Below, piece by piece: positions 2,359-33,219 of a DNA stretch of 48,218 bases. A model generated the notes under the pieces. The model was not told where the DNA came from. It searched no databases and saw only the letters and a program-made list of their open reading frames with translations. Every line of letters starts with the position of its first letter. Position 1 is the first letter of the stretch. Made by a program: the position numbers and the translations under genes. Where the stretch lies: positions 1 to 48,218 of the IMG/VR virus record IMGVR_UViG_3300021139_001496; one strand, 5' to 3'. The stretch is from a virus.

Positions 2359-2392
2359 ATTAATATAACTACTTTTATTCAGACAGCCAACT
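2359..2392 (-). promoter_or_regulatory. 34-bp promoter-like motif for the chaperonin operon
   Basis: On the minus strand this reads AGTTGG, 19 nt, TATATTAAT. It has the same length and spacing as twelve other copies in the window. It resembles a Bacteroidota -33 / -7 (TAnnTTTG) promoter. The start of the 78-aa gene is 18 nt downstream. Confidence 0.7.
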
Positions 2393-2395
2393 TTT

Positions 2396-3010
2396 TTAGC
2401 TATGTTTTTTCATCTTACTCATAACCTCGTTAATGTATAAAACTTTTAAGTGAATTGTTTCTATTTCTTCGTCAGTTAGGACTATATCTTCGTTTACCCA
2501 CATTACATGTACAGTTCCAAATTTAATATGATTACCGATTCTGAATATATAGTTAGTCTCTATACCGTAATACTTATTCAACTCTACAACTGATTCTCTA
2601 TAGTAATCCTTACCTGTTCTTATATAACCTTCATCAGAGGTATGAACATCCATTAATAACTCACATACCGGTGAAATCGGGACTCTTTGATAGTTTAGCA
2701 TCATTTCACGAGTAGTGTTATCAGCTTTCTCGTAAGTCATCGACGAGTAGTTAAACGGTAGACCATTTATAGCTGTATTTCCATTATGGTATTCAACAAT
2801 AGCTACTCTATTAGCTCCTATTAGAGCTCTTATTTCAACTAAAACTTCATTTATGGTAATTCGATGTTTAGTATTGTCGATAAATACAGTAGCTTCGTCA
2901 TGTTTTGAAAACCTTTTACCAATCCAGCTTCCAATGTAAGGTGCTACAGTTGCTAGAACTGCACCTATTACCACTCCGAATGTTTTAAGGTACTCAGGAT
3001 TCATATTCAT
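2396..3010 (-). CDS. Membrane-anchored hypothetical protein
   Basis: I place the start at ATG 3010 (204 aa). An in-frame TTG at 3049 would add 13 residues and overlap the polA stop, but the late-type motif CTATTTAT at 3020-3027 lies just upstream of ATG 3010 and favours the shorter form. A hydrophobic segment at about residues 10-30 (FGVVIGAVLATVAPYIGSW) predicts one membrane span. A soluble domain of about 160 residues follows, containing IVEYHNGNTAINGLPF and a closing helix, vaguely GAF-like in pattern. I do not recognise the family with confidence. A membrane-tethered sensor or structural role is only a guess. Confidence 0.6.
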   Translation of the reverse strand: MNMNPEYLKTFGVVIGAVLATVAPYIGSWIGKRFSKHDEATVFIDNTKHRITINEVLVEIRALIGANRVAIVEYHNGNTAINGLPFNYSSMTYEKADNTTREMMLNYQRVPISPVCELLMDVHTSDEGYIRTGKDYYRESVVELNKYYGIETNYIFRIGNHIKFGTVHVMWVNEDIVLTDEEIETIHLKVLYINEVMSKMKKHS

Positions 3011-3019
3011 AATGTAATT

Positions 3020-3027
3020 ATAAATAG
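3020..3027 (-). promoter_or_regulatory. Late-type motif CTATTTAT
   Basis: The minus strand reads CTATTTATAATTAC, 9 nt before ATG 3010. It matches the octamer found upstream of most virion genes in the window. It lies inside the TTG-extended version of the downstream gene and helps choose the ATG start. Confidence 0.45.
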
Positions 3028-3045
3028 CCTCGTCTACAATAAAAA

Positions 3046-5358
3046 TCAATGGCCATCGCGAAAATTTTTAGATAAAGCAGGAGGTGCTTTAAGCGTAACG
3101 CCATCTAGCTTAGTAGTATTTTCCATCTTCTCTTTTACCATCTTAGCTACCTCTTCGGCATGTTCTACCGGTACATTTATGATTAACTGGTCATGTACTT
3201 GTGCCTGGACTAATCCATCAATACCCATCTTCTTTAACTCTCTATTAATCTGTACGGCAGCTCTATTCACAATCGCGGCAGCTAAAGACTGTAGCTGATA
3301 GTTTAGACAGTTATTCAATCCATTCTTATAGTCTCTGTAGACTTGAAGTACTCGTTCTTTACCATATTTACCTTCTAGCTCCTTTCTAAACCTCCAATCT
3401 AGTATTTGATCTCCAGTAGTTGCATAGATCTGTTTAACTCTAGGTAAGTGTCTAATCCTACCTACCTTATTAACGATATAGCCATTCTCTTTAACGAACT
3501 GTCTTGAATTCTCTCTCCATGCTTTTAATCCAGGAAAACCATCTAGGTAGCCCTGTACTAGTTTATCGGCTTCTTTTTGAGGTATATCTAAAGTCTTAGC
3601 TAGTGCAAATGACTCCATCCCATAGGCAATACCTAGTGAATAGGCTTTAGCTTTATTTCTCTTGACCGGGTCAAGCTTTTTAAGAAAATTAGGTGCTTTT
3701 TTATCGGCACTAACACCTTCTAGCTTTTCGGTTTGAATAGCTACAGTAGAATAGAAGTCATGATTCTTATTAAAGATCTCCTGTAACTTTTCATCACCTG
3801 TAACAGATGCAAAACAGGTTGGTTCTAGGGATTCATAATCACAGTCAATTAACATCCTACCTTCTTCTGCTACCAGGAATGCTCTTACTAGATTATTGTA
3901 ATGAACTATGATAGGTGCTGCCTCGCCATCTTCTTTAGGTTTAGGTAGCTGCTGTAGATCAGAACCGTATCTTCCCGATACCGTACCATGCTGCTTAAAG
4001 TAGAAATAGTACCTACCGTCCTCATGCCTATCGTAAAATCTATCCACATAAGTAGACTTAATCTTTAGTAGCTTGTTATAGATACGTAAGTTTTCGGCCC
4101 ACTTCTCAGTCTTTGAAATAACTTCGATAACATCGTCATCGAATTGAGGTTTACCTTTTGCTGTAGTAGATAAAGGTTTGATACCCAAGACATCAAAAGC
4201 AATCTGACCTAACTGGTCTTTAGATTGTATGTTGAAGTACTTACCTTCATTATCTTCTTTCCACAGTGTTAGACTGGTTTTAACAAGGGTTTCTCGTGGT
4301 AGTATATTAAGATCACCTACAACTAAGAACTGCTTGAGATCCCCTTCTGGTAGAGATAAAACGGTACTCTTATTTAGAGTAAACTTACCGGTCTTCTCAG
4401 ATTTAGGTAGTTCAATACCTGATTGTCTAATCAATTCCTGGGCAAATGTACCTTTAGTGGTTGGTGGATAAGCCTTTAAAGCCATATCCATTATCCATTG
4501 CTTGACTCTAGAATCAGTTAATAGCTCTTCGGTTACTAATCTAGCATACTCATCCAAGTCCTTCTCTATCTTATCCTTGGTATCTTTGATTAGTTCCATA
4601 TCCAGTTCAACACCATACTCTTCCATTGGTACCGTAACCTCTTTATAGACAGGCATTACCTCTTCGTTGAAAAAGAAATCTTCTAGATTCTCGTCTATTA
4701 GCTTCTGTACGAAGTAGTTATAGATACGGAGAGTTAAATCAGTATCGGCAGCGCCATACTTAGCCAAGATATCCATATCTGCTTTATAAATCTCAAAGCA
4801 ATCCTTAGTCGTACTGCCGCCATTTCTCTTAATACTCTCTTTTAGTTCTATCTGCTCTTCATTGGCTTCAGTATCAATATCTAAACCTAACTCCTTCTGA
4901 ACCATTTTAGCAATTGATTTCAAACCAAAAGGATTACCTAAACCAAATGCACCCTCTTCTTGTACTGTGTGAACAAGTAGCATTGTATCGGCATGTAGAG
5001 AAGGTATTAGGTTGATATCGTAGAAATTCTTAATGAATCTCAAGTCAAATGCAGCATTATGACATATAACCTTTTTATCTACAAGCATAGATAGGGTCTT
5101 ATGTGCTAGCTCTTGGCAGTTGTGTTTACCTATGTATAAATTATCTAACTTCTCATCCTTAAACGCCATAGTAGGCATATAGAAACTATGTCCCTCTTTA
5201 CCGCAGATAGAAAAACCGATCACTCGACCCTTTCTAGGATTAAGTGAATCGGTTTCGATATCTAGAGCAATAAGCTCATTTTCACGGATATGGTTTACTA
5301 ACGAGGTTAGGGTCTCAATACTATTGACTGTAACGTAACTTTTTTGTATTTCTTGCAT
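3046..5358 (-). CDS. polA: Family-A DNA polymerase with 3'-5' exonuclease
   Basis: A 770-aa replicative polymerase. The exonuclease domain shows Exo I (DIETDSL, D33/E35), Exo II (CHNAAFDLRFI, near 99-109) and Exo III (YGAADTDLTL, near 201-210). The polymerase domain shows motif A (DCDYESLEPTCFA, near 505-517), motif B (RNKAKAYSLGIAYG, 567-580) and motif C (QVHDQL, 720-725). Motif A has DYES where DYSQ is usual, and motif C has HDQ where HDE is usual; the metal-binding aspartates are kept. There is no 5' nuclease domain; a separate 5' nuclease lies at 26986-28008. The start ATG is only 2 nt after the promoter-like motif at 5361-5394, implying a leaderless or nearly leaderless mRNA. Confidence 0.95.
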   Translation of the reverse strand: MQEIQKSYVTVNSIETLTSLVNHIRENELIALDIETDSLNPRKGRVIGFSICGKEGHSFYMPTMAFKDEKLDNLYIGKHNCQELAHKTLSMLVDKKVICHNAAFDLRFIKNFYDINLIPSLHADTMLLVHTVQEEGAFGLGNPFGLKSIAKMVQKELGLDIDTEANEEQIELKESIKRNGGSTTKDCFEIYKADMDILAKYGAADTDLTLRIYNYFVQKLIDENLEDFFFNEEVMPVYKEVTVPMEEYGVELDMELIKDTKDKIEKDLDEYARLVTEELLTDSRVKQWIMDMALKAYPPTTKGTFAQELIRQSGIELPKSEKTGKFTLNKSTVLSLPEGDLKQFLVVGDLNILPRETLVKTSLTLWKEDNEGKYFNIQSKDQLGQIAFDVLGIKPLSTTAKGKPQFDDDVIEVISKTEKWAENLRIYNKLLKIKSTYVDRFYDRHEDGRYYFYFKQHGTVSGRYGSDLQQLPKPKEDGEAAPIIVHYNNLVRAFLVAEEGRMLIDCDYESLEPTCFASVTGDEKLQEIFNKNHDFYSTVAIQTEKLEGVSADKKAPNFLKKLDPVKRNKAKAYSLGIAYGMESFALAKTLDIPQKEADKLVQGYLDGFPGLKAWRENSRQFVKENGYIVNKVGRIRHLPRVKQIYATTGDQILDWRFRKELEGKYGKERVLQVYRDYKNGLNNCLNYQLQSLAAAIVNRAAVQINRELKKMGIDGLVQAQVHDQLIINVPVEHAEEVAKMVKEKMENTTKLDGVTLKAPPALSKNFRDGH

Positions 5359-5360
5359 AA

Positions 5361-5394
5361 CTAAATATATGAACTTTATTTCAGACCGCCAACT
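5361..5394 (-). promoter_or_regulatory. 34-bp promoter-like motif abutting polA
   Basis: AGTTGG, 19 nt, TATATTTAG on the minus strand. The last base of the -7-like element is 2 nt from the polA ATG. The -33-like element abuts the stop of the upstream 211-aa gene. Confidence 0.75.
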
Positions 5395-6030
5395 CTAATC
5401 TACTCTATTTAAGTACATTAGAGAAAGAGGCATACTCAAATTAGGAAAATCAATTAGTACATTTCTCCAATGAGGTATTCTGTATACTTGCTTAAATCCT
5501 CTAATAGTACCAACTTTTCCATGAAAACAATCACCTTTTATTGATCCGTATCCATCCAATCTTAATCTAATTTGACGTCCAGGAAATGGATTTCTAATAA
5601 TATCAAGATTGATTTCTACTTTATCTCCAATTTTATAAGTGATAGTTTCGATTTCTACATCTTTAGAATTAGAAAACGGTTTTAGAATATGAATTAATGC
5701 TTCTTTATTTTCACATCTAACTACAAAATCTTGAATTTTTTCTCTATCGACTGGTTCGTTTGACAAGTCATTAGGAGCTACTTCTATTTTTTCTTTAGAA
5801 AGAAAATCTACACCGAAGAAGAAATTTTCTCCCAGTTGTGCATCATATTCATAATCGACTGGAGTAAATCCTTCTTTCACCCATCCGGTTGATCTCCAAA
5901 GAGATGTCGAGTGTTTTACGTATCCGAAACTGTTTAAACTTTCAAGTTCTTTAATTGAAGTCTTTAATGTAGTTTTGTAAGTTTCTAACGAATTTAACTT
6001 TACGTCTACAAATTTGTCTTTTTGTTTCAT
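5395..6030 (-). CDS. Hypothetical protein, 211 aa
   Basis: A soluble protein with no recognised family. The N-terminal part is charged and helical. The C-terminal part (about 130-211) is beta-rich with repeated basic and aromatic residues (KIGDKVEINLDI, KVGTIRGFKQVYRI), a pattern compatible with a small barrel, though I cannot name it. It has its own promoter-like motif at 6053-6086, 22 nt before the ATG, and precedes polA, so it is probably expressed with DNA-metabolism genes. Confidence 0.65.
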   Translation of the reverse strand: MKQKDKFVDVKLNSLETYKTTLKTSIKELESLNSFGYVKHSTSLWRSTGWVKEGFTPVDYEYDAQLGENFFFGVDFLSKEKIEVAPNDLSNEPVDREKIQDFVVRCENKEALIHILKPFSNSKDVEIETITYKIGDKVEINLDIIRNPFPGRQIRLRLDGYGSIKGDCFHGKVGTIRGFKQVYRIPHWRNVLIDFPNLSMPLSLMYLNRVD

Positions 6031-6052
6031 AACTTTTAATTTTTTATTTAAA

Positions 6053-6086
6053 CTAAATATATGAACTTTATTTCAGACTACCAACT
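6053..6086 (-). promoter_or_regulatory. 34-bp promoter-like motif
   Basis: AGTTGG, 19 nt, TATATTTAG on the minus strand. The -33-like element overlaps the stop codon of the dCTP deaminase-like gene. The next start codon is 22 nt downstream. Confidence 0.75.
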
Positions 6087-6597: not shown

Positions 6598-6600
6598 ATT

Positions 6601-6957
6601 TTACTCTTCTGGTTTAATTTTATTGTTAGCTATTAGATCTCTTAGGTTATAGTAGATTCCATAACTTGGATCAATAAAGACTATTTCGTCTTTTGTGTAG
6701 GTAATGTAATCAAGAGCATCGCCGGGGATAGTTATGTCTTCTAAGATTCGAAACTTGCGTGGTTCCACAAATATGTATTGATCTTCAGGTATGTGTACAT
6801 AGGATACAAGCTTATTTAACTTATCTCTCCTTCTACTACACCCACAATCTTCCTTACCTCTTAACTTAGCTATCCATTCGGCTAGTAAATCTAGTTTAAA
6901 GAAATGGGTGATCTGTGCTATAGTATCACCCAATCCTGTTGCTCTCTTATTTTCCAC
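6601..6957 (-). CDS. Conserved small phage protein with CGC motif
   Basis: 118 aa, starting at GTG (6957) and overlapping the folE 3' end by 11 nt; no ATG occurs in the N-terminal region. It begins with GLGDTIAQITHF, then DCGCSRRRDKLNKL near residues 37-50. I recall a GDTI...DCGC...R..LN pattern as a recurring short phage family of unknown function. The CxC pair could bind metal. The C-terminal half looks like a small mixed alpha/beta domain. Virion or packaging roles are guesses. Confidence 0.65.
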   Translation of the reverse strand: MENKRATGLGDTIAQITHFFKLDLLAEWIAKLRGKEDCGCSRRRDKLNKLVSYVHIPEDQYIFVEPRKFRILEDITIPGDALDYITYTKDEIVFIDPSYGIYYNLRDLIANNKIKPEE

Positions 6958-7660
6958 TCTTACTTGTCTTTACAAACTCGTAGAATTCACTCCTACAAGC
7001 ATCTTCTTCCATAAATGCTCCATCCAATTTAGAGGTAATCATATTAGCACCTTGATGCTTAACTCCTCTACAAGATACACAGCTATGTCCAGCCTCTATC
7101 ATCACAGCTACACCTTGATTACCTTCACAGATATTCTTTACTGCACTATGTATAGCTACTGTTAGCTGTTCCTGGATAGCACCTCTTCTTGCAAAGTGTT
7201 CTACAATACGATTTAGTTTAGATAAACCAATCACTCTACCTTCAGCTGTTGGTATATAGGCGATATGCACTTTACCTGAGATTTGCTGGTGGTGGTGTGA
7301 ACACATACTTGTAACTGGTATATTACCTTCAAATACTAATCCTGTATAACCATCGGCAGGAAATGTTATCACCGGAGATAAAGCTTCATACCTACCTCTC
7401 CATAAATCTCGGACGTAACTTTTTGCTACACGTCTTGGTGTATTACTACTATTTGGATCATTTACCCAATCTACTCCTAATGCAGTTAGGAAGTTACCGA
7501 AGTGCTTGGCAGCCTCTTCTATAATTGCTTGCTTTTCATCCTCAGATAAAGATAGTATAGTAGGGTTTAATGCTACTTTACTAGCTAGTTGTAGAGAGAT
7601 TCCATTAGCATGTCCGGGTTGAGCTACTTCAAGCTCTTCTATATTTACTATCTTACTCAT
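6947..7660 (-). CDS. folE: GTP cyclohydrolase I (FolE)
   Basis: The start is ATG 7660 (237 aa). A longer in-frame TTG start at 7696 would lie inside the promoter-like motif, so I reject it. FolE converts GTP to dihydroneopterin triphosphate, the first step towards 7-deazaguanines. Diagnostic motifs are SNTPRRVAKSY (near 72-82), MCSHHHQ (119-125, zinc and catalytic residues), GLSKLNRIVEHFARR (145-159) and HSCVSCRGV (192-200). With queD, queE, queC, queF and dpdA in the window, it most likely feeds DNA modification and not folate synthesis. Confidence 0.95.
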   Translation of the reverse strand: MSKIVNIEELEVAQPGHANGISLQLASKVALNPTILSLSEDEKQAIIEEAAKHFGNFLTALGVDWVNDPNSSNTPRRVAKSYVRDLWRGRYEALSPVITFPADGYTGLVFEGNIPVTSMCSHHHQQISGKVHIAYIPTAEGRVIGLSKLNRIVEHFARRGAIQEQLTVAIHSAVKNICEGNQGVAVMIEAGHSCVSCRGVKHQGANMITSKLDGAFMEEDACRSEFYEFVKTSKSGK

Positions 7661-7664: not shown

Positions 7665-7698
7665 CTTAATATAAGAATTTTATTCTGATTCTCCAACT
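7665..7698 (-). promoter_or_regulatory. 34-bp promoter-like motif for folE
   Basis: AGTTGG, 19 nt, TATATTAAG on the minus strand, ending 4 nt before the folE ATG. It overlaps the last codons of the upstream 47-aa membrane-protein gene. Confidence 0.75.
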
Positions 7699-15841: not shown

Positions 15842-16783
15842 TTATTTTGCTTTTAAGATTCTATTTAAAGTTAAACGGTCTTTTATACCGTATTTCTCTA
15901 GAAGATATGCTTTAGTTGTAGTCTGTGCGTATTTCTGGATTTCTTCTACATAGTTCCAAGCCGGGTGTTTCTTAACTTTGCTGTGGTAACCTATAGGTTT
16001 AAGTATCATATTATTCTTTAAAGCAAGTTTAGAGATAGTATTTTTATGAATGTTAAAGAACTTTGCTATCTGAACCAGGGTATAACCTTTATCATAATAT
16101 AGTTCTTTAAATTTCTCTAAATCAAGTACCTTCTCTGTAGTCTTTTTCTCAATACCTCTCTGTCTATCTATCAAATACTGCTCAGAATAACTTTTAAGTT
16201 CAATACTGTGCTTTATTAATATACTTTTTAAGGTATACATATCACATTTATACTTCTCAGCTAAGGACTTTCTGGAAAAACCCTGTAGGTACTGTTGTAC
16301 TATCTCTTCTTCGTGTTCCCACGCTTTACTTCTATATCTTTTTGCATCTAATAAGGTCCCTAGTATTTTATATAGAGTAGTTTTATCACAACAGTATCTA
16401 GAAGCTAAGCTACTTACACTTACCCCACTTTGATACTCTGTTCTTATTGCTTCATAGTAATCTACCCAGAGGTCTACTCTCCTATTAAAAGAGTTCTTAG
16501 TGTGTTTTCCAATACCGGACCTTCGTAGATTATAGATATTATCAGGTTCGTTTTGAAAAGCTGTACTGATAAGCTTATCTTCATAAGCATTAGCTTCCTC
16601 CCGAGTATCAAATTGCTGTAATACAACCTTCTCAAAGTTACTAAGCCCTTCAATTTTATAAAGATTTTTTAGTATTTTAGAAGAAGACATATAGTTATCA
16701 AAACATGGATTAGGAGAAGATCTAGAACCTATATAATACCTACCATTCTTCTTGTTTGTAATTTTGTAAACATAGTGTACCAT
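15842..16783 (-). CDS. GIY-YIG homing endonuclease with HTH repeats
   Basis: A 313-aa paralogue of the protein at 10248-11198. It has a GIY-YIG domain (HYVYKITNKKNGRYYIGSRS at 3-22) followed by several HTH-like segments (TLVQIAKFFNIHKNTISKL is one, near 243). It lies between queC and dpdA, 8 bp before dpdA, with a late-like ATATTTATAATC about 20 nt upstream of its ATG. It is a free-standing homing gene. No split gene or group I intron core is evident around it. Confidence 0.88.
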   Translation of the reverse strand: MVHYVYKITNKKNGRYYIGSRSSPNPCFDNYMSSSKILKNLYKIEGLSNFEKVVLQQFDTREEANAYEDKLISTAFQNEPDNIYNLRRSGIGKHTKNSFNRRVDLWVDYYEAIRTEYQSGVSVSSLASRYCCDKTTLYKILGTLLDAKRYRSKAWEHEEEIVQQYLQGFSRKSLAEKYKCDMYTLKSILIKHSIELKSYSEQYLIDRQRGIEKKTTEKVLDLEKFKELYYDKGYTLVQIAKFFNIHKNTISKLALKNNMILKPIGYHSKVKKHPAWNYVEEIQKYAQTTTKAYLLEKYGIKDRLTLNRILKAK

Positions 16784-18548: not shown

Positions 18549-18582
18549 CTAAAGATACGAACTTTAATTCAGACTAGCAACT
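18549..18582 (-). promoter_or_regulatory. 34-bp promoter-like motif ahead of the queC-dpdA region
   Basis: AGTTGC, 19 nt, TATCTTTAG on the minus strand, ending 4 nt before the next ATG. It is the best candidate start for the 18.5-13.6 kb modification operon. Confidence 0.75.
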
Positions 18583-22364: not shown

Positions 22365-25295
22365 TTATACGAGCTCACAAGAGTTTCCGGAACAGGCCAC
22401 TTGATCTGTTAAATCTGTATTATCTTCTACTTCAATAATATCTTTCAAGTCTATTGCATGTAAGTATTTAGACATTTCTTCAAATTTCTCTTCCGTGCAG
22501 TCTTGAAAAGGTGCTTGCATGTAAGATCCGTTATCGTAAGGTAGTACTGATAATCCATTAAAAGTTTCTTTATACTTCCACATCCATTCTCCAACTTCTT
22601 TCCATTCTGAATCTTTGATTGAAATGGTTGCTGAAACGTTATTAGTGTTAGCACCTTTTCTATGACCCTCTCTAACCCATTCTGTATTAAATTTCTTAAC
22701 TCTTTCTAGTAACTCTAGAGCAGATTCAGTACGTAGTATTGAGCCTTTAGGTGCTTTTTGAGGTACAGAAATTACAGCCTGTATATTAGGTTTGAAGAAA
22801 TCGTCTTCAATTAATTCAGGGTGGTTAATAGCTATGTAATTGTAGATAGCTTCGTTCTTACCTACTCTAATTGTTCTTATATAATAATCGTTATGCCATG
22901 CATGTATACCTGATGATGTACCCAATACTAGTGAACTAGTACCTGATGGCTTAACTGTTGTTACTCTAGCTGCTTTATTAATGCCAAGTATTTCTGCTAC
23001 CCTAGCATTTTCTTGATTAGCTACCTTAGCTGCTTTCTCTAAATCGTAGTTTAAAATTACACCAGATCCAATACCTGTCATTCCTATTCCTAATAGAGCA
23101 TCTTTTTCAGTTGTCTTTTTCCATATATCTCTTAAGTAATGGAAATCACTATAAGATGCCTGTAGGGTACCGATTAGAGTAGCTGCTTTAACTCTAGCCT
23201 CTAAATCTTCTTGTGATTCAATATCAGATACATTCACTTCACATAAGTTACAGAACTGATAAGGACGTAAAGCAATCTCACAACAATTTCCTGTTATACA
23301 GTGTGATATCTGAAAAGTATGTGTACTGTCATAAACTGATATATCCCATACATCTTCTACGACGTCCGATAGCTTAATGTCTATTATAGCTATCTTATCT
23401 GAATCAACATGGGCTTTATATCGACTACTCACTAGTTTAGATACTATATCTTCTAGGTTCTTTTGCTTTTCTTTAGAAGTAAGGTTAAATAGTTTAGCAA
23501 AATGCAGGATGCTTTCTCTATCTGTCACACTTACTACGTAGGTCGTATGTTCCTTATACTCTCTACCGAAAGCTACTAAATCTCTAGTATACTCTCTAAT
23601 ACTGCTCTTAATTCCGTAAAATCCTAATAATTCTGATAGGTCTTCTGCTAGTTTGCTATGTACTGTGTAGTAGTTTACCGCTCTTCCGTGTTTAGGATTC
23701 TCAACTCCTCCATCGCTTGAGTACATACCGTCTATCAAACCTTTTCTAAACTCTTCTGATCCTTCCCTCCACGTAGCTTCAGGAAGACCCCTAGACTTGT
23801 GTTTATACCCATACTCTTCAAAAAGATTGTTCAGGTAAACACTGTCTGTAGTGTATTCAAGGCAATTTTGCTTATTTAAAGTTCCTTGTATGTTTGAAGA
23901 TGTTTCTCTGTTTATAAAAGCTAAAATCCTGTTGGGTATATCGCTTTCTATATCCTTAGGGGAGAAAATAAATCCTATGTTATTACGACCGTTTTTGTTT
24001 TCAGTAACCCATCCATCTCCTATATTCCACCCTAACAAAAAGCCCTCATCTATAGTTCCTTTTGTTCCGTTGAATAAGTAGTCTTGTTTTAAAGTAGGGA
24101 ATTGATATCCCTTCTGCAGGTCTTTTGTCTGTACCTTTACATATTCCTTGCCATTCCATACAGGCCATTCATGTTCCGGAGTTGCATGATATTTCTTATT
24201 ACCTTGTAGTGTAATTTCGTAGAGTTGTTTATCTTTCCCAGATAACCAGCATTTAGCTTTACTAGTCTCCCCGGTTAAGTTCTTCACGAAAAACTCTGTA
24301 TCTTGAAGATCTTCTATGTTAAAAATTCCATTAGTAGTAATTACCTTAGTACCTGCCCGTAGTGATGGGTTTGTTCCCCAATCTTTATCGTTAGAGAAAT
24401 ACATACCTGGTTCTCCTGAACCTGATAGTTCTATTTTCTTCCATAACTTGAAGAATTCTTCTTCTGTTATCTTATGTCTTAGGATAACTGCAGAGTTATT
24501 GGCACGACCTCTTTGAGGATTTTGTTCCCACCAATTACCAAACTTACAAGTCAGCATATCCTCGTCATCTAGATTGAATAAAGAGATTAGAGCCGCTCTA
24601 CGAATACCCCCAGATAGTACTGCATCTGCTAGGAAACAAACTATGTCATGACATTCTAAAGAAGTTAATTTATCTCCTGTATTCTTTCTGTCAAAAATCT
24701 TTTGAATTTGGAATAAACACTCTTTTAAAGGTTCTGGTCCTGGTGCTTTACCGCCTGATGTGATTAGTAGAGCTCCTTTTGGACGTACATCTCTAAAGTC
24801 AAACTTTGGTAGAGTACCGCCTGTAAAGTAAGCCTTACATAAAACCTTAACTGCATCTGCCCAGCCTTCAATACTATCACTTACTAAGAAACGTTTTGAT
24901 TTAGTGGGTACTTTAACTTCAGGTAATTTTTCTACGTGATGTAACTGTACTGAGAAACCTACACCACATCCTGATAACAGTAGAAACATTGCTTCTGAGA
25001 ATGATCTGTAATCATCGATTGGTAAGAAAGAACAGTTATAGATACGGGCATTGTTTAATTCAATTGGTCTACCACCAAACTGTAACGATCTCATAGAAGG
25101 TAAAACCTTTCTATCATAGACTAGCTTATAGGCCTCTTCTATTTCTTCTCTTAACTGCGGAAATTTCTCAATATGCATACCCTTATTACGGTCTACAATC
25201 TCTTTCCATACTTCTCTTCTTTTTAATTCGGGGATAAACCTTGCATATTTCATATATACCGTAAGGTCTGATAAAATGCTTTGCGAAACGTCCAT
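22365..25295 (-). CDS. nrdJ: Class II (B12-dependent) ribonucleotide reductase with intein
   Basis: ATG 25295 gives a 976-aa precursor; an in-frame TTG at 25310 would add five residues. It resembles monomeric adenosylcobalamin-dependent ribonucleoside-triphosphate reductases. Visible are YARFIPELKRREVW (17-30), RIYNCSFLPIDD (84-95, first active-site Cys), GCGVGFSVQLHHVEKLP (109-125), the TNP/CCEIALRPYQFCNL active-site strand, TTVKPSGTSS, and redox cysteines in the C-terminal ACSGNSCELV. An intein of 360 aa sits between P310 and C671, so the spliced enzyme is 616 aa, somewhat shorter than well-studied relatives. It makes deoxynucleotides from ribonucleotides. The phage also carries a cobalamin adenosyltransferase. 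Confidence 0.93.
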   Translation of the reverse strand: MDVSQSILSDLTVYMKYARFIPELKRREVWKEIVDRNKGMHIEKFPQLREEIEEAYKLVYDRKVLPSMRSLQFGGRPIELNNARIYNCSFLPIDDYRSFSEAMFLLLSGCGVGFSVQLHHVEKLPEVKVPTKSKRFLVSDSIEGWADAVKVLCKAYFTGGTLPKFDFRDVRPKGALLITSGGKAPGPEPLKECLFQIQKIFDRKNTGDKLTSLECHDIVCFLADAVLSGGIRRAALISLFNLDDEDMLTCKFGNWWEQNPQRGRANNSAVILRHKITEEEFFKLWKKIELSGSGEPGMYFSNDKDWGTNPSLRAGTKVITTNGIFNIEDLQDTEFFVKNLTGETSKAKCWLSGKDKQLYEITLQGNKKYHATPEHEWPVWNGKEYVKVQTKDLQKGYQFPTLKQDYLFNGTKGTIDEGFLLGWNIGDGWVTENKNGRNNIGFIFSPKDIESDIPNRILAFINRETSSNIQGTLNKQNCLEYTTDSVYLNNLFEEYGYKHKSRGLPEATWREGSEEFRKGLIDGMYSSDGGVENPKHGRAVNYYTVHSKLAEDLSELLGFYGIKSSIREYTRDLVAFGREYKEHTTYVVSVTDRESILHFAKLFNLTSKEKQKNLEDIVSKLVSSRYKAHVDSDKIAIIDIKLSDVVEDVWDISVYDSTHTFQISHCITGNCCEIALRPYQFCNLCEVNVSDIESQEDLEARVKAATLIGTLQASYSDFHYLRDIWKKTTEKDALLGIGMTGIGSGVILNYDLEKAAKVANQENARVAEILGINKAARVTTVKPSGTSSLVLGTSSGIHAWHNDYYIRTIRVGKNEAIYNYIAINHPELIEDDFFKPNIQAVISVPQKAPKGSILRTESALELLERVKKFNTEWVREGHRKGANTNNVSATISIKDSEWKEVGEWMWKYKETFNGLSVLPYDNGSYMQAPFQDCTEEKFEEMSKYLHAIDLKDIIEVEDNTDLTDQVACSGNSCELV
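23286..24365 (-). mobile_element. LAGLIDADG intein inside the RNR
   Basis: Precursor residues S311-N670 (360 aa). Block A starts SLRAGTKVITTNGIFNIEDL and block B is HATPEHEW (TxxH). A homing endonuclease domain has LLGWNIGDGWV and LIDGMYSSDGGV as the two dodecapeptides. Block F/G is VWDISVYDSTHTF then HCITGN, followed by +1 Cys. The first residue is Ser and the last Asn; the penultimate residue is Gly, not the usual His, though His occurs earlier in the block. The insertion point is TNP|CC, with the +1 Cys apparently also the catalytic thiyl-radical cysteine. Confidence 0.93.
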
Positions 25296-25351
25296 ACGTC
25301 TAGTATTCAATTTTTTATGATTGTGAATAAATAAAATTTAATAAATGTTAA

Positions 25352-25578: not shown

Positions 25579-26949
25579 CTATCCTCCTAATTCGTAGAAT
25601 TTTTTAGCTAATTGGTCTCTTTCTACTGAGCTAAATCCTCCAAAAGTACTTGTTGCACTTCCTGAATTTGGTGCAAACGTAGTATCCTCTAATTCACCAT
25701 CCTCAAATACAATCTTACCTATCGAAGTATCTACAGTAGCACCGTACGACATACCGTCCATTCCATATCTATTTTTCATAATGTGGAATCTACCTGTACC
25801 GTTTTGCTTATCTTTTCTTTGTCTTGATAAGGACATTGCAAAGTCGGCAATCATTAACTTATCGTAAGACCCTGCTGCTTTATCTCCTTCAATAATATCG
25901 TCTTTTGCACCTGCACGGTTAACCTGAGATACAGTCCAAACTGGTACTTTTAATTCTCTGGCTAGACCTTTTGCTGCCGTATACACATCATCAATCTCAT
26001 CTTTCTTCTCTGTTGACTTTCTCTTTGATTTAAGCAAGTCTACATAGTCAATTAGGATTAGATCAGGCTTAATGCCCATACTGCTACATTTTTGTATGTG
26101 AGATTCGATAGTATTCATAGTAGCTCTACCGGGGGAATACTCTCTTACTATCAATGTACCGGGAAGTTCTGATATAACTTTCTCTAGTGTGGACCTATGA
26201 TCTTTTAATTGATCAATAGGAATCTCTGTAAAACAAGCATCGTATCTCTTACCTATGTAGGCTTCTGATAATTCTAAAGTATAGTGTAATACAGTGTACC
26301 CCTGCTTTACTGCCGCGGCACCAATCGATACTAGACAATGTGATTTACCTCCTCCCGGATTACCAAATATAATACCAAAATCACCAGATCCTAATCCTCC
26401 CATCAGTAGTTCATTTACTTTAGGCCAATCAGTAGGTATAGGTGATCTATCTTCTTCTCTGTATCGAGATTCTACATCTTTTACGTATTCGTGTCCGATA
26501 TTCTTATCTTGACCTGCTTTTAGAGCCTGATCAATAATACTTCGAATACTATCATACTGTCCGGTCTGTAGTAGGTCCACAGAAGAGAATAAAGCATTCT
26601 TTAGCTGTTGATTCTTTAAGAAAGAAGAAAACTCCTGTTCTACATACTCTCTATCTTCGTTAACTGTCTTATAAGCTTCTTTTAGCTGTTCTACAACAGA
26701 TACCTTTAAGACATCGTTTGCAATCTTCTTAACTTCAACCTGCAGAGAATCTAGAGAAGGTACGGTGTGATATTGTTTATAATACCTTAGAATCTCACCT
26801 ATAATCCATTTATGTGCTGGATTATCAAAGGATTCTGGGTCTAAGATATCATGTATTGTGTTTAGAAATTCTTTATGCTTTAATAAAGAGGTAATAACTT
26901 TTATCTGAAAGCTTGAGCTATACTCGGATAATTTTGAAAGTGTGGTCAT
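25579..26949 (-). CDS. Replicative DnaB-like helicase
   Basis: A 456-aa hexameric helicase of the DnaB / T4 gp41 type. It has an N-terminal helical domain (1-150), then the RecA-like motor: Walker A GNPGGGKSH (196-204), Walker B LILIDYVDLL (297-306), WTVSQVNRAG (338-347) and a C-terminal arginine-finger region (FHIMKNRYG). It would unwind DNA ahead of the family-A polymerase. Its promoter-like motif lies 17 nt upstream of the ATG. A recognisable DnaG-type primase is not in the window. Confidence 0.93.
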   Translation of the reverse strand: MTTLSKLSEYSSSFQIKVITSLLKHKEFLNTIHDILDPESFDNPAHKWIIGEILRYYKQYHTVPSLDSLQVEVKKIANDVLKVSVVEQLKEAYKTVNEDREYVEQEFSSFLKNQQLKNALFSSVDLLQTGQYDSIRSIIDQALKAGQDKNIGHEYVKDVESRYREEDRSPIPTDWPKVNELLMGGLGSGDFGIIFGNPGGGKSHCLVSIGAAAVKQGYTVLHYTLELSEAYIGKRYDACFTEIPIDQLKDHRSTLEKVISELPGTLIVREYSPGRATMNTIESHIQKCSSMGIKPDLILIDYVDLLKSKRKSTEKKDEIDDVYTAAKGLARELKVPVWTVSQVNRAGAKDDIIEGDKAAGSYDKLMIADFAMSLSRQRKDKQNGTGRFHIMKNRYGMDGMSYGATVDTSIGKIVFEDGELEDTTFAPNSGSATSTFGGFSSVERDQLAKKFYELGG

Positions 26950-26965: not shown

Positions 26966-26999
26966 TTTAATATAACTACTTAATCTCAGACCGCCAACT
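26966..26999 (-). promoter_or_regulatory. 34-bp promoter-like motif for the helicase
   Basis: AGTTGG, 19 nt, TATATTAAA on the minus strand, 16-17 nt before the helicase ATG. It overlaps the end of the 5' nuclease gene. Confidence 0.75.
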
Positions 27000-28008
27000 T
27001 AAATCCAGTCAAATATTGAAAGGTATCGTAAAACCAAGTTGCTACATTAGGTATACTGTTACCTAAACAATCCTCAGCGTAATACTTCATAAAGGTAGCT
27101 TTATCTACATTCATATTAGGATTATCTATTACGTGTTGAATCCTTATTAGATCTTCTTCCGGAATATTAACTTCATGTAGATTCATTAACTGCTTATTGA
27201 TAGCTAGCTGCTGACGGAAGTCATAGATTTTCTTATACTTTCCTTGCTCTTTTTCGGCATGTTCTAAGATCTGCTCTATGTGTAGAGTCTCAGGTTCTTT
27301 TAGGGCCGGGTATAGCTTTAACATTGTCTTTACTCCTAACCCCTGGACTCCAGGTACATTATCGGAGTTATCTCCAAGTAGAATCTTTTGAGTTAGAAAG
27401 TTATTGGCAGGTATACCATACTCATCTAGAACTGCTTTTGGTGTATAGAACTTCTTCTTCACCGGTGAATACACTGTTACCCTATCTGATACTAACTGTA
27501 AATAATCTCTATCTGAAGACATTATATGTACCGAATCACCTGTTGTATTACTGATATGTGCTATAACATCATCTGCTTCTATCTTATCTATTGATAACAT
27601 ATCCACAGGTAGACATTTTAGATAGTCTACCAGTCTTACTAACTGATCTGTAATAGATGCAGATTCATCAGCTTGTGAATCAAATCCATCCCAATTTGAG
27701 ATTTTATTGATCTTACGGTTAGCTTTGTATTCAGGATACAGGTATCTTTTATTAGTTGACCCTCCATGTCCATCAAAGACAAGGATTACACGGGTTGGTT
27801 TGATATGCCTGATAGCAAAACCAATTGATTTTAGATACCCAGTCAAACCCCCAATATGATTTCCCTGAGGGTTTAAATGGTGGATCATTACGAAACTTCT
27901 TAGAAAGGTATTTAACGAATCTATAAGTAGAATTCTACTGTTTTTATGTAACGGAGTTTCTTTAGATTCTTTTAGCCCATCTATGATTGCTTTAAATTCT
28001 TTATTCAC
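26986..28008 (-). CDS. 5'-3' exonuclease / flap nuclease
   Basis: A 340-aa protein of the Pol I 5' nuclease / T4 RNase H superfamily. Metal-binding motifs are visible: LLIDSLNTFLRSF (28-40), VILVFDGHGGSTNKR (78-92), IEADDVIAH (near 142-150), MSSDRDYLQLV (159-169) and LLGDNSDNVPGVQGLGVKTM (210-229, helix-hairpin-helix region). It would remove RNA primers and flaps, a function missing from the phage polymerase. It starts at GTG, overlapping the DenV stop by 1 nt (TAGTG). Confidence 0.9.
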   Translation of the reverse strand: MNKEFKAIIDGLKESKETPLHKNSRILLIDSLNTFLRSFVMIHHLNPQGNHIGGLTGYLKSIGFAIRHIKPTRVILVFDGHGGSTNKRYLYPEYKANRKINKISNWDGFDSQADESASITDQLVRLVDYLKCLPVDMLSIDKIEADDVIAHISNTTGDSVHIMSSDRDYLQLVSDRVTVYSPVKKKFYTPKAVLDEYGIPANNFLTQKILLGDNSDNVPGVQGLGVKTMLKLYPALKEPETLHIEQILEHAEKEQGKYKKIYDFRQQLAINKQLMNLHEVNIPEEDLIRIQHVIDNPNMNVDKATFMKYYAEDCLGNSIPNVATWFYDTFQYLTGFKLAV

Positions 28009-28415
28009 TACACTGTTTTAGTGGTTAATTTAGATTGTTTCTTTTGCTTGGCAAGAGGATTTGCAAGTCTATCTGCAATTCTCTCACTTATAATCCGGAT
28101 ATCTTCTTGAGTAGGTTGATAGGTATTCATCATCTCTACCGGTACTTCATCCCAAGAGCTCTCCCAGTTCTGCACGTTAAATCCTCTACGCTTACATTCC
28201 TGATATAATTCTCGATACCTCTCTTTGAGGTAGCCTATTTTATCATAGAAGAACGAAACGTGGCCTTTACCCAAGCTAAACTTAGCCGGTATAGACTTAG
28301 GATTATACCTACCTCTAGATACTACGTTTGGAATACGTTTTAATTCTCGATGCTCGGCAATTAAATGCTGATTAGATAAAGTCCGGGGTGAAATCCCGAT
28401 GTTGATGCGTGTCAT
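28008..28415 (-). CDS. denV: DenV-type pyrimidine-dimer glycosylase (T4 endonuclease V-like)
   Basis: A 135-aa protein, close to the 138 aa of T4 endonuclease V. The N-terminus MTRINIGISP...NQHLIAEHREL aligns with the T4 enzyme. It includes Thr2 (whose amino group is the nucleophile), Arg3 and the catalytic Glu in HREL (E24). GKGHVSFFYDKIGYLKERY (69-87) also matches. It excises UV-induced cyclobutane dimers and nicks the abasic site. The ATG is 2 nt after the promoter-like motif's last base, implying a leaderless mRNA. Confidence 0.92.
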   Translation of the reverse strand: MTRINIGISPRTLSNQHLIAEHRELKRIPNVVSRGRYNPKSIPAKFSLGKGHVSFFYDKIGYLKERYRELYQECKRRGFNVQNWESSWDEVPVEMMNTYQPTQEDIRIISERIADRLANPLAKQKKQSKLTTKTV

Positions 28416-28417: not shown

Positions 28418-28451
28418 CTAAATATAAGGACTTTTTTTCAGTCTAGCAACT
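28418..28451 (-). promoter_or_regulatory. 34-bp promoter-like motif abutting denV
   Basis: AGTTGC, 19 nt, TATATTTAG on the minus strand, 2 nt before the denV ATG, the same arrangement as polA. It overlaps the recombinase stop codon. Confidence 0.75.
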
Positions 28452-29536: not shown

Positions 29537-29561
29537 AAACTGTTAAATTGATTGGTTTTAA

Positions 29562-30410
29562 TTAAAATGGTAAATCGTCGTCTGATTCTATTTCTTTAGC
29601 TGCTTTTGTAGGTGCAAATATATCATCGAAGGCTTTATCTACATCTAATGGAGATGCTTTCTTACCTAATGAATAATTTGACTTTACTTTTTCTACCGGT
29701 GCTGCTACAGTGGGTGCTGGTGTTTCAGCTACTTCTTCTGTTTCAGAAGGATTTAACCATTCTAGTAATGAGTTTTTCATTTCATCATACCCGTACTTTT
29801 TAAACAGGTTCATTGGATCTGGTTGGTTTTGTAACCAAGCCTCTACATCTTTACCGTTTGGTGATAGAGGTGTGATCTTAGTTCTAACTCTAACCTTTGA
29901 TTGATTAAAACCAGTACCATTAGTTGCTGCGTCAGTAGTTTCGATTGTTAAATCTCTACCTTCTACTGGATCGGTATAGTCTTGTACATCTTCGTCTTCA
30001 GCGATTGCTAGTAACTCCATGTAGATTTGTTTACCGAACTCCCATAACCTTACGCCTTTTTCTTCTTCACCTCTTACGATAACAGGTGCAAATACACGCA
30101 TCTTAGGTGCTAGTTTTTTAGCCATCGCCCAGTTGTCTTTGTCACTAGTCTTTCTTAGCTGATCGGCAAATTCAACGATTGGGTCTTTCTCACCGAAGTT
30201 GGCTAGTGAGATCATTGTACGGTTTCCTACTCCGTAATGGAAAAATAATTCCTTAAAAGGATTGTGCTTGTCGTACATCGAAGGTACAATTCTTACTGCG
30301 TGTTTACCAACGCCTGGTTTCCAAATTAACTGGCTTAGATCTTTTCTTTGGCCTCCATTGCTTTTTTGTTGCAGTGAAGCTAACTTGCTCTTAATTGCTG
30401 TTAAATCCAT
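29562..30410 (-). CDS. gp32-like single-stranded DNA-binding protein
   Basis: A 282-aa protein. The N-terminal basic segment and core (LSQLIWKPGVGKHAVRIVPS near 24-43, FKELFFHYGVGNRTMISL near 52-69, KMRVFAPVIVRGEEEKGVRLWEFGKQIY near 103-130) fit the T4 gp32 OB-fold family. The tail ends DDLPF, the acidic tip typical of SSBs that recruit replication partners. It coats ssDNA during replication and recombination. It has a promoter-like motif about 40 nt upstream plus ATTCACAAT, a sequence also found before the RNR. Confidence 0.88.
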   Translation of the reverse strand: MDLTAIKSKLASLQQKSNGGQRKDLSQLIWKPGVGKHAVRIVPSMYDKHNPFKELFFHYGVGNRTMISLANFGEKDPIVEFADQLRKTSDKDNWAMAKKLAPKMRVFAPVIVRGEEEKGVRLWEFGKQIYMELLAIAEDEDVQDYTDPVEGRDLTIETTDAATNGTGFNQSKVRVRTKITPLSPNGKDVEAWLQNQPDPMNLFKKYGYDEMKNSLLEWLNPSETEEVAETPAPTVAAPVEKVKSNYSLGKKASPLDVDKAFDDIFAPTKAAKEIESDDDLPF

Positions 30411-30450
30411 GTTTGCTGTTTTTTATATAATTGTGAATATTTACTATAGG

Positions 30451-30484
30451 TCTAATATAGATACTTTAAGTCAAACTATCAACT
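30451..30484 (-). promoter_or_regulatory. 34-bp promoter-like motif for the gp32-uvsX run
   Basis: AGTTGA, 19 nt, TATATTAGA on the minus strand, about 40 nt before the gp32-like ATG. It overlaps the stop codon of the GIY-YIG gene. Confidence 0.65.
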
Positions 30485-31198
30485 TTGTTTTACGATAAAA
30501 ACACCTTGTTTAATTCTAATAGTTACTGTGTTTTTAGATATCTTGAAATACGATGCTGCTTCTGTACAGCTTTTAAATTCCTGTCCTGTTGCTATGTGAA
30601 TTAAGGTCTTAGTCATAGGGTTTATTCCACCTGCTGTAAATGCATTTTTCGGTAGAATTCTATACTTTGCTAGCGCTGGTATTTCTACAGCTTTTTTAGA
30701 TTCCACTCTACCTGTAATACCTTTAGATATATTTTTTCTATGCTCTTCTGAGAGCTCTCTACCTTTGTGAGCTTCAGATATTTTTCTTCTTGTCTCTTCT
30801 GAGAGTTTCCTACCTTTTCGCTGTTCCGACATTTGCTTTACATGCCTTTCTGATTTAGACTTCCCTTTCTTAGCTACAGACATCTTTTTCTTAGCTTCTT
30901 CTGACATTTTTCCGCTTTTATGCTCTGTTTTAGTTAACTTACAGTTTAATCCTTTCTCAGTTAATACTTCGTAATAGTCTTGCCAGTATCGTTCTCTTTG
31001 ATTTAGGTCTTGCTCTAAACATTCTTCTAGTGTTTCAAAAGTATGTGTCTCTATTCCGTATTTTTTAATAGAGCGTTCAAGAATAATTTGCCCTTTTCCT
31101 AGATAAGTTTTATACTGTTTCCATCTAGCTTCAATATCAATACTTTGCCCAACATAGACTCTTCCTTTTGGATTCGTGATTTTATAAATACCCACCAT
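30479..31198 (-). CDS. GIY-YIG homing endonuclease with NUMOD3 repeats
   Basis: A 239-aa SegA/I-TevI-like protein. It has a GIY-YIG catalytic domain (GIYKITNPKGRVYVGQSIDIEAR, 3-25), three to four NUMOD3-type DNA-binding repeats (GKMSEEAKKKMSVAKKG, GRKLSEETRRKISEAHKG, GRELSEEHRKNISKG, near 95-165), and a C-terminal HTH module (EFKSCTEAASYFKISKNTV). It lies between the gp32-like gene and a small 138-aa gene. It differs in architecture from the two paralogous GIY-YIG proteins in the deazaguanine region, so it is an independent acquisition. Confidence 0.9.
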   Translation of the reverse strand: MVGIYKITNPKGRVYVGQSIDIEARWKQYKTYLGKGQIILERSIKKYGIETHTFETLEECLEQDLNQRERYWQDYYEVLTEKGLNCKLTKTEHKSGKMSEEAKKKMSVAKKGKSKSERHVKQMSEQRKGRKLSEETRRKISEAHKGRELSEEHRKNISKGITGRVESKKAVEIPALAKYRILPKNAFTAGGINPMTKTLIHIATGQEFKSCTEAASYFKISKNTVTIRIKQGVFIVKQS

Positions 31199-31278
31199 TA
31201 TAGTAAATAGAAAAAGCTCTTGATCAAAAGGATACTGCCATACCCTAACAATCTTGAGCTTAGTAAATTTATTGCCAT
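31198..31278 (-). CDS. Possible 26-aa ORF coupled to the GIY-YIG gene
   Basis: ATG 31278 to TAA 31198 encodes MAINLLSSRLLGYGSILLIK plus six residues. Its stop overlaps the endonuclease ATG (TAATG), and a late-type CTATTTATTATAG lies about 20 nt upstream. The start codon is inside a long-range inverted repeat (ACTGCCAT/ATGGCAGT). It may be a translated leader controlling the endonuclease, or chance. Confidence 0.3.
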   Translation of the reverse strand: MAINLLSSRLLGYGSILLIKSFFYLL

Positions 31279-31296
31279 GGCAGTGGCTGTACTATA

Positions 31297-31304
31297 ATAA
31301 ATAG
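31297..31304 (-). promoter_or_regulatory. Late-type motif CTATTTAT
   Basis: The minus strand reads CCTATTTATTATAG in the gap upstream of the GIY-YIG gene. Having both motif classes here would allow early and late expression of the endonuclease. Confidence 0.45.
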
Positions 31305-31373
31305 GTGTAAAATAATGTTTTTAGCTGTTTTATTGTGAATTAATAATATACAGTGTTTATATTGCCGTATAAG

Positions 31374-31407
31374 AGTAATATACGGACTTCTAGTTAGATT
31401 AGCAACT
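31374..31407 (-). promoter_or_regulatory. 34-bp promoter-like motif upstream of the GIY-YIG gene
   Basis: AGTTGC, 19 nt, TATATTACT on the minus strand. It lies just after the stop of the 138-aa gene and about 95 nt before the 26-aa ORF. Confidence 0.65.
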
Positions 31408-31417
31408 TTTTCTTGAA

Positions 31418-31834
31418 TTAAAGTGCTACAATCTTAAAAATCTTTGTTTTCAGTTGTCTTAGATCAGGACCTTGAGTAAGTAAAACGGTGTTACGATGGT
31501 CTTGCCAGTTTATTTTAAATTGAGGATCTACGGTACCGCCGTTTAAGGTACGTATTAGTGCATTTAAACCATTGATGGTATATAATGTATTAGATTCTTT
31601 CTTTCTATGTAGAAGTATGGTGTTCTTTAAAACACTGCTACTTGAATTATGCGGGTCAATATTATAGGTAACAAGAAACTCTTCACCATCCACTATCTCC
31701 AATACAAATATTTTATTGTACAGAATACTGTAATGTGTTGTGATAGTTGTAAGAGTATCGTCTAAGATATCTTTAGCAGTAAAGGTGCAAAATAATTTAT
31801 TGCTCAATTGGAAAATGTTTATCTGTTCTGTCAT
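31418..31834 (-). CDS. Hypothetical protein, 138 aa
   Basis: A soluble protein rich in beta-strand pattern (KIFVLEIVDGEEFLVTYNI, SNTLYTINGLNALIRTLNGG), with no recognised family. It starts 15 bp after the short polymerase gene and has its own late-type motif CTATTTATAATTA (31852-31859). Function unknown. Confidence 0.55.
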   Translation of the reverse strand: MTEQINIFQLSNKLFCTFTAKDILDDTLTTITTHYSILYNKIFVLEIVDGEEFLVTYNIDPHNSSSSVLKNTILLHRKKESNTLYTINGLNALIRTLNGGTVDPQFKINWQDHRNTVLLTQGPDLRQLKTKIFKIVAL

Positions 31835-31849
31835 AACTGTTTTCTTTAA

Positions 31850-33172
31850 TTATAAATAGCTTGTTCTTGTAAGGGAAGCATAGTCTTTACCTACTTTTAC
31901 TTTAGCTTTAAACCCTTCTCTCTCAATTACCTCTTTAATTTCTAGTAACACTTCTTTACCGTCTTCTAGTGAAAAATCTAGTAAAAAAGAATCGTAAACC
32001 ACTAATACTACCTCACTCTTATACCTATTTAGGATTGAATTAATCTCGATCAAGAAAGTTACATTTTGTCTAGTTTCTTCGTTCTGTATACTATAGTTAA
32101 ATAGTTTCTGTGGATTCAAAGAGATCTTTGAGAGATGTAGGGCTCTCCCTGTTCTCAATATAGTTTTACCTGTTTCTTGATACTCAATCCATAACTTATC
32201 AATATACTTCTCTATTTCCTGGAAGAATGGTATGGATTTGTATTCTTTCTGTACTCCTCCATAGATCTGTTTGAAGGATATTGCTTTGGCTTCTTGATAT
32301 TCATCTTCTGTTAATTCCTCTTTTTGAAAGTAATGGCTACCCAACTGTGTGTGAATAGATTCAGCGGTATCGAATTTGTATCCAACCAGTTTTGCAATTA
32401 GAGCTAGATGATAGGCTTCAAAGTCAAACTCCACAAATAAATCATTCTTGGGTATAAATGCCTGTCTTGAAGAATCCTCTTTATTGAGTGCAAGGAAATT
32501 TATGGCATTAAATGCATTTGTAGGTCTAGCAGTCAGGTTATAGAGGTTGTAGGAAGTATAGATTATGTCATCTTTAATTGAATAAGGTCCCCAAGTTGGT
32601 TCATAATACTTATCAAAGATAGCTGGATTTATTTTAATCCCATTACTCTCTATTCTACTGTATTCTCTAGCTAGATTAGTATTAAAAGTTATAGCTTCTT
32701 CCTTTCCTATATAGGCTTTAACCTGGTCATATAAACATTCACATTTTTCATAATGCTTAGATACAGGAATGATACTATTGAGATTTGGGAGTAGTGAATG
32801 ATCGGTATAGTAGTGTTGTATAATTTTAGGTGTACATTCAAAGATAACGTGTTTATTTTCCTGATCTAGAATAGTTTGATTGATATCAACTATATTATCA
32901 TGCTTAATGAATCTAGATGTCAATTTTTGATCTTGACAGTACACCTTTTTATACCCAGCTAAAAATGCCTGGACTTCTTCTAGAGTTAAAGATAGAGTCT
33001 CACTATGATTAATAGCCAGAATATACCCGCTATACTTATCTCTTATGTAAATTAGACTAACATAATTTAATTCAGGATGATAGTTATCACTACCTAATAT
33101 AACCTTTATATAACAATCTTCTCTTAAGACTAGCCTAGCTAGCTGCTCACTCGTTTCTACTATGTAAAACAT
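31850..33172 (-). CDS. Second, short family-A polymerase-like protein
   Basis: ATG 33172 gives 440 aa; a TTG one codon upstream is also open. The C-terminal 250 residues have the family-A palm/fingers layout: motif A VEFDFEAYHLALIA (D250), motif B AKAISFKQIYGG (295-306), an RxGR-like segment RTGRALHLSK, and motif C VVYDSFLLDF (D394), where HDE is replaced by YDS. TARPTNAFNAINFLAL near 215-230 resembles the T-R-P segment of Pol I. No exonuclease motifs are visible in the shortened N-terminal half. It may be a translesion, gap-filling or priming polymerase, or a degenerate paralogue. The full replicative polymerase is at 3046-5358. Confidence 0.75.
   Translation of the reverse strand: MFYIVETSEQLARLVLREDCYIKVILGSDNYHPELNYVSLIYIRDKYSGYILAINHSETLSLTLEEVQAFLAGYKKVYCQDQKLTSRFIKHDNIVDINQTILDQENKHVIFECTPKIIQHYYTDHSLLPNLNSIIPVSKHYEKCECLYDQVKAYIGKEEAITFNTNLAREYSRIESNGIKINPAIFDKYYEPTWGPYSIKDDIIYTSYNLYNLTARPTNAFNAINFLALNKEDSSRQAFIPKNDLFVEFDFEAYHLALIAKLVGYKFDTAESIHTQLGSHYFQKEELTEDEYQEAKAISFKQIYGGVQKEYKSIPFFQEIEKYIDKLWIEYQETGKTILRTGRALHLSKISLNPQKLFNYSIQNEETRQNVTFLIEINSILNRYKSEVVLVVYDSFLLDFSLEDGKEVLLEIKEVIEREGFKAKVKVGKDYASLTRTSYL
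31852..31859 (-). promoter_or_regulatory. Late-type motif CTATTTAT
   Basis: The minus strand reads GCTATTTATAATTA, 17 nt before the ATG of the 138-aa gene and overlapping the stop of the short polymerase gene. Confidence 0.45.
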
Positions 33173-33185
33173 CAAAACCTTTTGT

Positions 33186-33219
33186 TGTAAGTTATGAACT
33201 TATTTTCACATTTCCAACT
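33186..33219 (-). promoter_or_regulatory. 34-bp promoter-like motif for the short polymerase
   Basis: AGTTGG, 19 nt, TAACTTACA on the minus strand: the geometry is kept and the -7-like element is weaker. It lies 13 nt before ATG 33172 and marks the boundary between the virion and replication modules. Confidence 0.6.

Follow-up and report, generated by a model that had tools for sequence, protein, structure and literature searches.

The 34-bp motif AGTTGS-N19-TATMTTWA, repeated 13 times in the 48,218-nt stretch of viral DNA analysed here (the window; positions 1 to 48,218 of IMGVR_UViG_3300021139_001496), is very likely a promoter, judging from its position, strand, -33/-7 geometry and recurrence. 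The 13 copies are probably early/middle promoters of a T4-like Flavobacteriia phage, a relative of Immutovirus, with a strengthened -33 element and read by the host RNA polymerase. What was observed directly is the motif, where it lies, its geometry, its recurrence and how it differs from host promoters; the polymerase and the timing were deduced from these. The promoter nature claimed in the original prediction gained support from position, strand and geometry, from relatives with diverged spacers, and from the match to the -33/-7 elements of Bacteroidota.

All 13 predicted copies were recovered at their positions and in the expected form (AGTTGS, exactly 19 nt, TATMTTWA), and all 13 were on the minus strand (Table 1). 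A matrix built from these copies scored them between 27.8 and 46.0 bits (18.3-44.1 bits with leave-one-out scoring), compared with 11.3 bits for the second-best site in the window and a mean maximum of 7.6 bits in Markov-shuffled windows. The pattern AGTTG-N20-TATnTT had 11 matches in the window at N20 and 0-1 at every other spacing, and TTG-N20-TA was present in 13/13 copies. The possibility raised with the original prediction, that the motif occurs as often within genes as between them, failed clearly, since all 13 -7 elements are intergenic in a window with a coding fraction of 0.942 (P about 8e-17). The upstream stop codon lies -13 to +17 nt from the motif start in 11/13 copies, in agreement with the overlap that had been described. 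The reported TCTGA of the spacer is also real, with about 1.0-1.2 bits per column for CTGA, as is a further block (AAAGT..C). Position -5 is A in 10/13 copies and G in one.

The genes served are those of replication, nucleotide metabolism and modification, as claimed (PolA, DnaB, SSB, DenV, FolE, a kinase and others), together with a homing endonuclease and small ORFs of no known kind. In 6/13 window copies the -7 element is followed after 3-6 nt by the start ATG of an ORF no shorter than 40 aa; these distances, counted from the 8-nt TATnTTnA, correspond to the gaps of 2-5 nt first given from a 9-mer. The description of the motif as often abutting the ATG thus holds for six genes, but the copy at 9376 adjoins only a 21-codon mini-ORF.

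Table 1. Copies of the 34-bp motif (putative promoters) with the genes downstream, late-motif sites and sigma-like genes.
Feature	Position	Strand	Score (bits)	Genes and remarks
Promoter copy 1	2359..2392	-	39.1	Start codon 19 nt past -7 element; downstream 78-aa ORF (2104-2340) and groES/groEL (1808-2107, 152-1801; Cpn10/Cpn60 matches)
Promoter copy 2	5361..5394	-	45.4	Adjoins polA (3046-5358), ATG 3 nt after -7 element
Promoter copy 3	6053..6086	-	46.0	211-aa gene (5395-6030), start codon 23 nt past -7 element
Promoter copy 4	7665..7698	-	30.6	Adjoins folE (6947-7660, GTP cyclohydrolase I), ATG 5 nt after -7 element
Promoter copy 5, variant ATTTGG	9376..9409	-	27.8	Adjoins 21-codon mini-ORF; 71 nt ahead of 68-aa ORF (9099-9305)
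Promoter copy 6	12047..12080	-	38.8	Adjoins 40-aa 'CGDSH' ORF (11921-12043), ATG 4 nt after -7 element
Promoter copy 7	13553..13586	-	29.8	Adjoins P-loop kinase gene (13038-13547, AAA_28), ATG 6 nt after -7 element; overlaps 3' end of formyltransferase-like gene
Promoter copy 8	18549..18582	-	44.5	Adjoins 165-aa gene (18047-18544), ATG 5 nt after -7 element
Promoter copy 9	26966..26999	-	38.5	dnaB-like helicase (25579-26949, DnaB_C), start codon 17 nt past -7 element
Promoter copy 10	28418..28451	-	43.6	Adjoins denV (28008-28415), ATG 3 nt after -7 element
Promoter copy 11	30451..30484	-	30.1	gp32-like SSB (29562-30410), start codon 41 nt past -7 element
Promoter copy 12	31374..31407	-	32.6	176 nt upstream of GIY-YIG endonuclease (30479-31198)
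Promoter copy 13	33186..33219	-	33.0	Upstream of second PolA-like protein (31850-33175, DNA_pol_A)
Late motif [CA]TATTTATA	31851, 41962, 43011, 44393, 47575	-		Ahead of structural and neighbouring genes
immuto gp118, sigma-like	L024:28174-28872			Annotated as hypothetical protein in immuto
gp118 relatives	L439-L518			Records G001, G013, G014, G016-G019

The window carries on one strand genes for GroEL/ES, PolA, a dCTP deaminase-like protein, FolE, QueC/D/E/F-type proteins, DnaB, a 5'-3' exonuclease, DenV, a RecA-like and a gp32-like protein, and tail genes come after this replication and nucleotide gene block. Its PolA shares 60% identity with the PolA of the 160-kb Flavobacterium phage vB_FspM_immuto, whose host is Flavobacterium sp. 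LMO8, so the window is most likely a piece of a T4-like myophage of about that size. The second PolA-like protein (441 aa) is separate from the main PolA and is kept in 9/9 relatives compared. Three GIY-YIG endonuclease genes (10248-11198, 15842-16783 and the one in Table 1) sit scattered among replication and 7-deazaguanine genes, two of them with helix-turn-helix repeats, and a ribonucleotide reductase with an insertion domain of the B12-dependent type (22365-25310) is split by a LAGLIDADG intein. In a relative with 98% identity, a 270-aa ORF with its own CTATTTATA, probably a homing endonuclease, is inserted between the promoter and the start codon of the kinase (L001:2788-3680).

The complete immuto genome contained 26 strict copies of the motif, likewise spaced by 19 nt, which cluster among the small ORFs at 60-77 kb and are almost lacking from the structural region. 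Across all phage loci, from simple ORF calls on contigs that are mostly fragments of non-independent relatives, the spacing histogram had a single peak (161 versus about 20 per other spacing). At the level of single records, TTG-N20-TAT stood out from neighbouring spacings near zero in immuto (28/33), the window (8/11), G013 (11/27), G002 (12/23), G017 (22/43), G018 (21/42) and G021 (18/35), and a de novo dyad analysis of upstream regions found the same geometry independently in most other phage records examined, G016 being a record in which that analysis revealed no -33 element. The geometry (TTG, 20 nt, TATMTT) is therefore common to immuto and many uncultured relatives, with differing spacer 'dialects': AGTTGs-tagTCTGAaataAAGT in the window, G013 and G020, AGTTGc...TTC in immuto, G015 and G003, and GTTTGGCTT...TGT in G017 and G018. 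G001 kept TATCTTTAG and has CTCA at the spacer position, without the -33 element. The class was absent from five unrelated Bacteroidota phages (phi4:1, phi38:1, phi10:1, phi14:2 and FCL-2), and is thus not a general mode of using the host enzyme.

Two further features accompany the motif in relatives. Terminator-like hairpins are nested in the promoter at six loci (L005:9953, L006:1026, L009:9500, L014:9954, L024:14497 and L023:37293), where the 5' arm (AGTTGC...GCAACTTTTTT) includes the -33 AGTTGC/AGTTGG and the run of Ts stops just ahead of the -7 element; a block of about 34 bp may there end one transcript and start the next. In immuto (L024:17600-25100), promoters of the early region lead into a conserved sequence, GGTATCAATAATTAAAA, present in more than 10 copies as a shared 5' UTR.

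A separate element, [CA]TATTTATA, was enriched on the sense strand upstream of genes in all phages tested (sense versus antisense: 23 vs 1 in immuto, 33 vs 0 in G017, 2 vs 2 in the host). It lies most often 10-25 nt ahead of the ATG, without a fixed -33 partner, and in immuto and the window mainly precedes structural genes, which makes it a probable late promoter. Within 120 nt downstream of a gene for a sigma-like protein (immuto gp118 and relatives), it was found at 57/72 loci, and never antisense. Matches of the gp118 family to Sigma70_r2 were weak and limited to 11/28 members (best 0.0072), 4/28 members matched the PHROG 'late sigma' family, and in an hhalign comparison gp118 aligned to residues 1-89 of T4 gp55 at P = 0.05 but a probability of only 1%. 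Of the named viral models matched by the AlphaFold2 model of gp118 (pLDDT 77), most were sigma subunits (probabilities reaching 0.98; E 0.018 for the best); against the PDB the fold search returned no significant match, with RpoE, sigma-32, WhiG and AR9 nvRNAP recurring among the top matches. These profile and model comparisons are suggestive of a gp55-like sigma factor that would read the late class.

In Bacteroidota hosts, the consensus is TTTG at -33 and TAHHTTTG at -12 to -5 (PMC6847099, PMC9723704), with a nearly invariant G at -5, a -33 element that is barely visible in Flavobacterium, and, for the RNA polymerase of F. johnsoniae, a start usually 4-5 nt past the -7 box (PMC6847099). The phage motif shares with these promoters of the primary sigma factor (sigma-ABfr) TTG at -35 to -33, about 20 nt upstream of -7, and TAnnTT at -12 to -7, and its start-codon distances fit initiation a few nucleotides downstream. 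It departs from them in having A rather than G at -5, so that TA..TT but not TAnnTTTG is kept, and in its strong -33, invariant spacing and conserved spacer. Strict copies numbered 0-2 per 3-5.7 Mb in six Flavobacteriia genomes, which stand for Flavobacteriia in general and may not include this phage's own host, and in a 400-kb Flavobacterium piece the top dyad was TATC-TTTG, without a fixed TTG. Sense counts of TATMTTTN (A/C/G/T) were 12/2/22/8 in the host and 27/2/1/1 in immuto; in phages TATMTTTA lies far above TATMTTTG, whereas in the host the reverse holds. The phages have almost no host-type TATMTTTG, and the few start-proximal sites of this kind in them were at control level. A DksA-like factor was considered as the cause of the A at -5 and rejected, PF01258 reaching the cut-off in only 2/14 records, immuto not among them.

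No match to Sigma70_r2 reached the cut-off in the window, immuto and six relatives, none to Sigma70_r4 did so in 14 records, and none to T7-type RNA polymerase (PF00940) was detected in the window, immuto and six relatives, where the control genomes gave no match either. As host-type TATMTTTG is also nearly absent, immediate-early genes should, by elimination, use the motif class; a promoter class that can be read at time zero has to exist, which favours reading by the host enzyme, as with T4 early promoters. The host RNA polymerase, carrying the primary sigma factor of Bacteroidota, would then bind TTG at -35 to -33 and TATMTTWA at -12 to -5. The phage would have fixed the spacing, strengthened the -33 element and swapped the host G for A at -5, with a conserved spacer presumably added in this lineage (CTGA at -27 to -24, AAAGT at about -20 to -16 and C at -14). 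With promoters strengthened in this way, early genes could hold their own against host promoters and be switched on ahead of any phage factor, while structural genes would use the separate [CA]TATTTATA, for which a gp55-like sigma of the phage is the probable reader. Against host reading stand the A at -5, which departs from the host G, and a rigid, strong -33 unseen in the host. The absence of the class from the five unrelated Bacteroidota phages and, for polA and denV, the usual host start-site distance weigh on the same side.

The departures at -5 and -33 bear on a competing explanation, judged unlikely although by far the best placed of the alternatives, in which the promoter is read only with help from a phage-encoded specificity factor, either a diverged sigma or an activator of the MotA kind, whose contacts with AGTTGS and the CTGA of the spacer dictate the rigid spacing. 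The A at -5 and the near-absence of the motif from hosts agree with it, as do conservation over 34 bp including the spacer, restriction to one phage clade, lineage dialects and a sigma-like protein encoded by the clade. However, a class usable at time zero is needed, TTG and TAnnTT occupy the host -33/-7 positions, and the sigma-like protein is less likely to be the reader of the 34-bp motif because it borders late genes: the late motif directly follows its gene and fits the late class. A search for a regulator by phylogenetic profile yielded only metabolic genes and a few unknowns as genes common to motif-bearing and missing from motif-free phages, none an obvious regulator. Also rather improbable is the fuller proposal of a phage clade with a dedicated factor-dependent class (AGTTGS-N19-TATMTTWA plus a spacer contact), set off by the -5 base and coupled to leaderless replication genes where leaderless mRNAs are rare.

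That the repeats are a recently copied promoter cassette spread by recombination, its spacer conserved through shared descent only, is very unlikely. Spacers are indeed more alike within one phage than between phages, but similarity among the window copies ends at the motif edges, conserved columns alternate with free ones, the core and spacing persist at orthologous sites of diverged phages even though most spacer bases have changed, and G001 keeps CTCA at the same distance. Even less credence is due to a non-promoter role (an operator, a replication or recombination signal, or an RNA element): the motif does sit near replication genes, but it is strictly strand-oriented and just ahead of genes, with a -7-like element at the right distance, and folding of the window copies was no stronger than that of shuffled sequences (mean z 0.09). 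For the same reason a spacer hairpin was rejected as the explanation of the motif, although in some relatives (e.g. AGTTGCTTAATTGCAACTTTTTT) the -33 element forms an arm.

Early/middle promoters read by the host enzyme invite comparison with T4. T4 late promoters consist of TATAAATA, recognized with gp55, and T4 middle promoters of a MotA box (TGCTT) at -30, N11-13 and a sigma-70 -10 element. T4-type early promoters use host sigma-70 and are conserved beyond the host consensus (PMC1524935, PMC6024815), with dialects among T4-like phages (PMC1524935). As in T4 early promoters, the phage copies are many, more uniform than host promoters and divided into lineage dialects; they precede early/replication genes and small unknown ORFs, and the late class is separate, with a short element only, an arrangement found in both the window and the immuto bins. 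Unlike T4 early promoters (GTTTAC/TATAAT), the motif (AGTTGS/TATMTTWA) is built on -33/-7 rather than -35/-10, the sequences are unrelated, and the phage promoters are predicted ones. With T4 middle promoters it shares the replication and nucleotide genes served and an upstream element at a set distance; this element, however, lies at the sigma -33 position without a TGCTT box, the conserved blocks at -37 to -32 and -27 to -24 have another sequence, and no MotA-like gene was found. The late motif resembles T4 late promoters in standing ahead of structural genes without a fixed -33 partner, and a sigma-like gene stands before it, but on the coding strand it is the reverse complement of TATAAATA; it also differs from the 34-bp motif.

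Leaderless mRNAs are plausible for the six copies with a start codon 3-6 nt beyond the -7 element: the predicted 5' ends would coincide with the AUG or fall no more than about 2 nt from it, the start site and translation without a leader being read here from distances. The same placement of the ATG occurred at 11/74 TAHHTTTG sites in Flavobacterium and 75/432 sites in other phages (p about 0.017 each), and leaderless mRNAs make up 5.5% in F. psychrophilum (PMC9723704). With a host-like start, transcripts of folE, the kinase, the 165-aa gene and the CGDSH gene would have leaders of 0-2 nt. For polA and denV, the usual host distance would truncate the AUG; transcription would have to initiate 3 nt beyond the box, which is 1-2 nt short of the host norm. 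Both start codons are credible: the PolA N-terminus is conserved in orthologues with an adjoining promoter (window and L001-L004, 3-6 nt) and without one (L005-L008 and immuto), and the DenV family alignment (Pyr_excise) begins at residue 1. In immuto the start codon is about 24 nt from most of these promoters, so that leaderlessness would be a trait of the window lineage rather than of the class.

Overall, the early and late promoter classes of T4-like Bacteroidota phages come into view here from sequence, a subject on which no paper was found in the literature searched. Ready-made test promoters for the role of -33, and possibly strong parts for Flavobacterium genetics, are available from a large phage clade in which that element is strong and exactly spaced. 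To our knowledge, Shine-Dalgarno pairing is not used in this Bacteroidota group, in which polA, denV and folE make leaderless translation directly testable.
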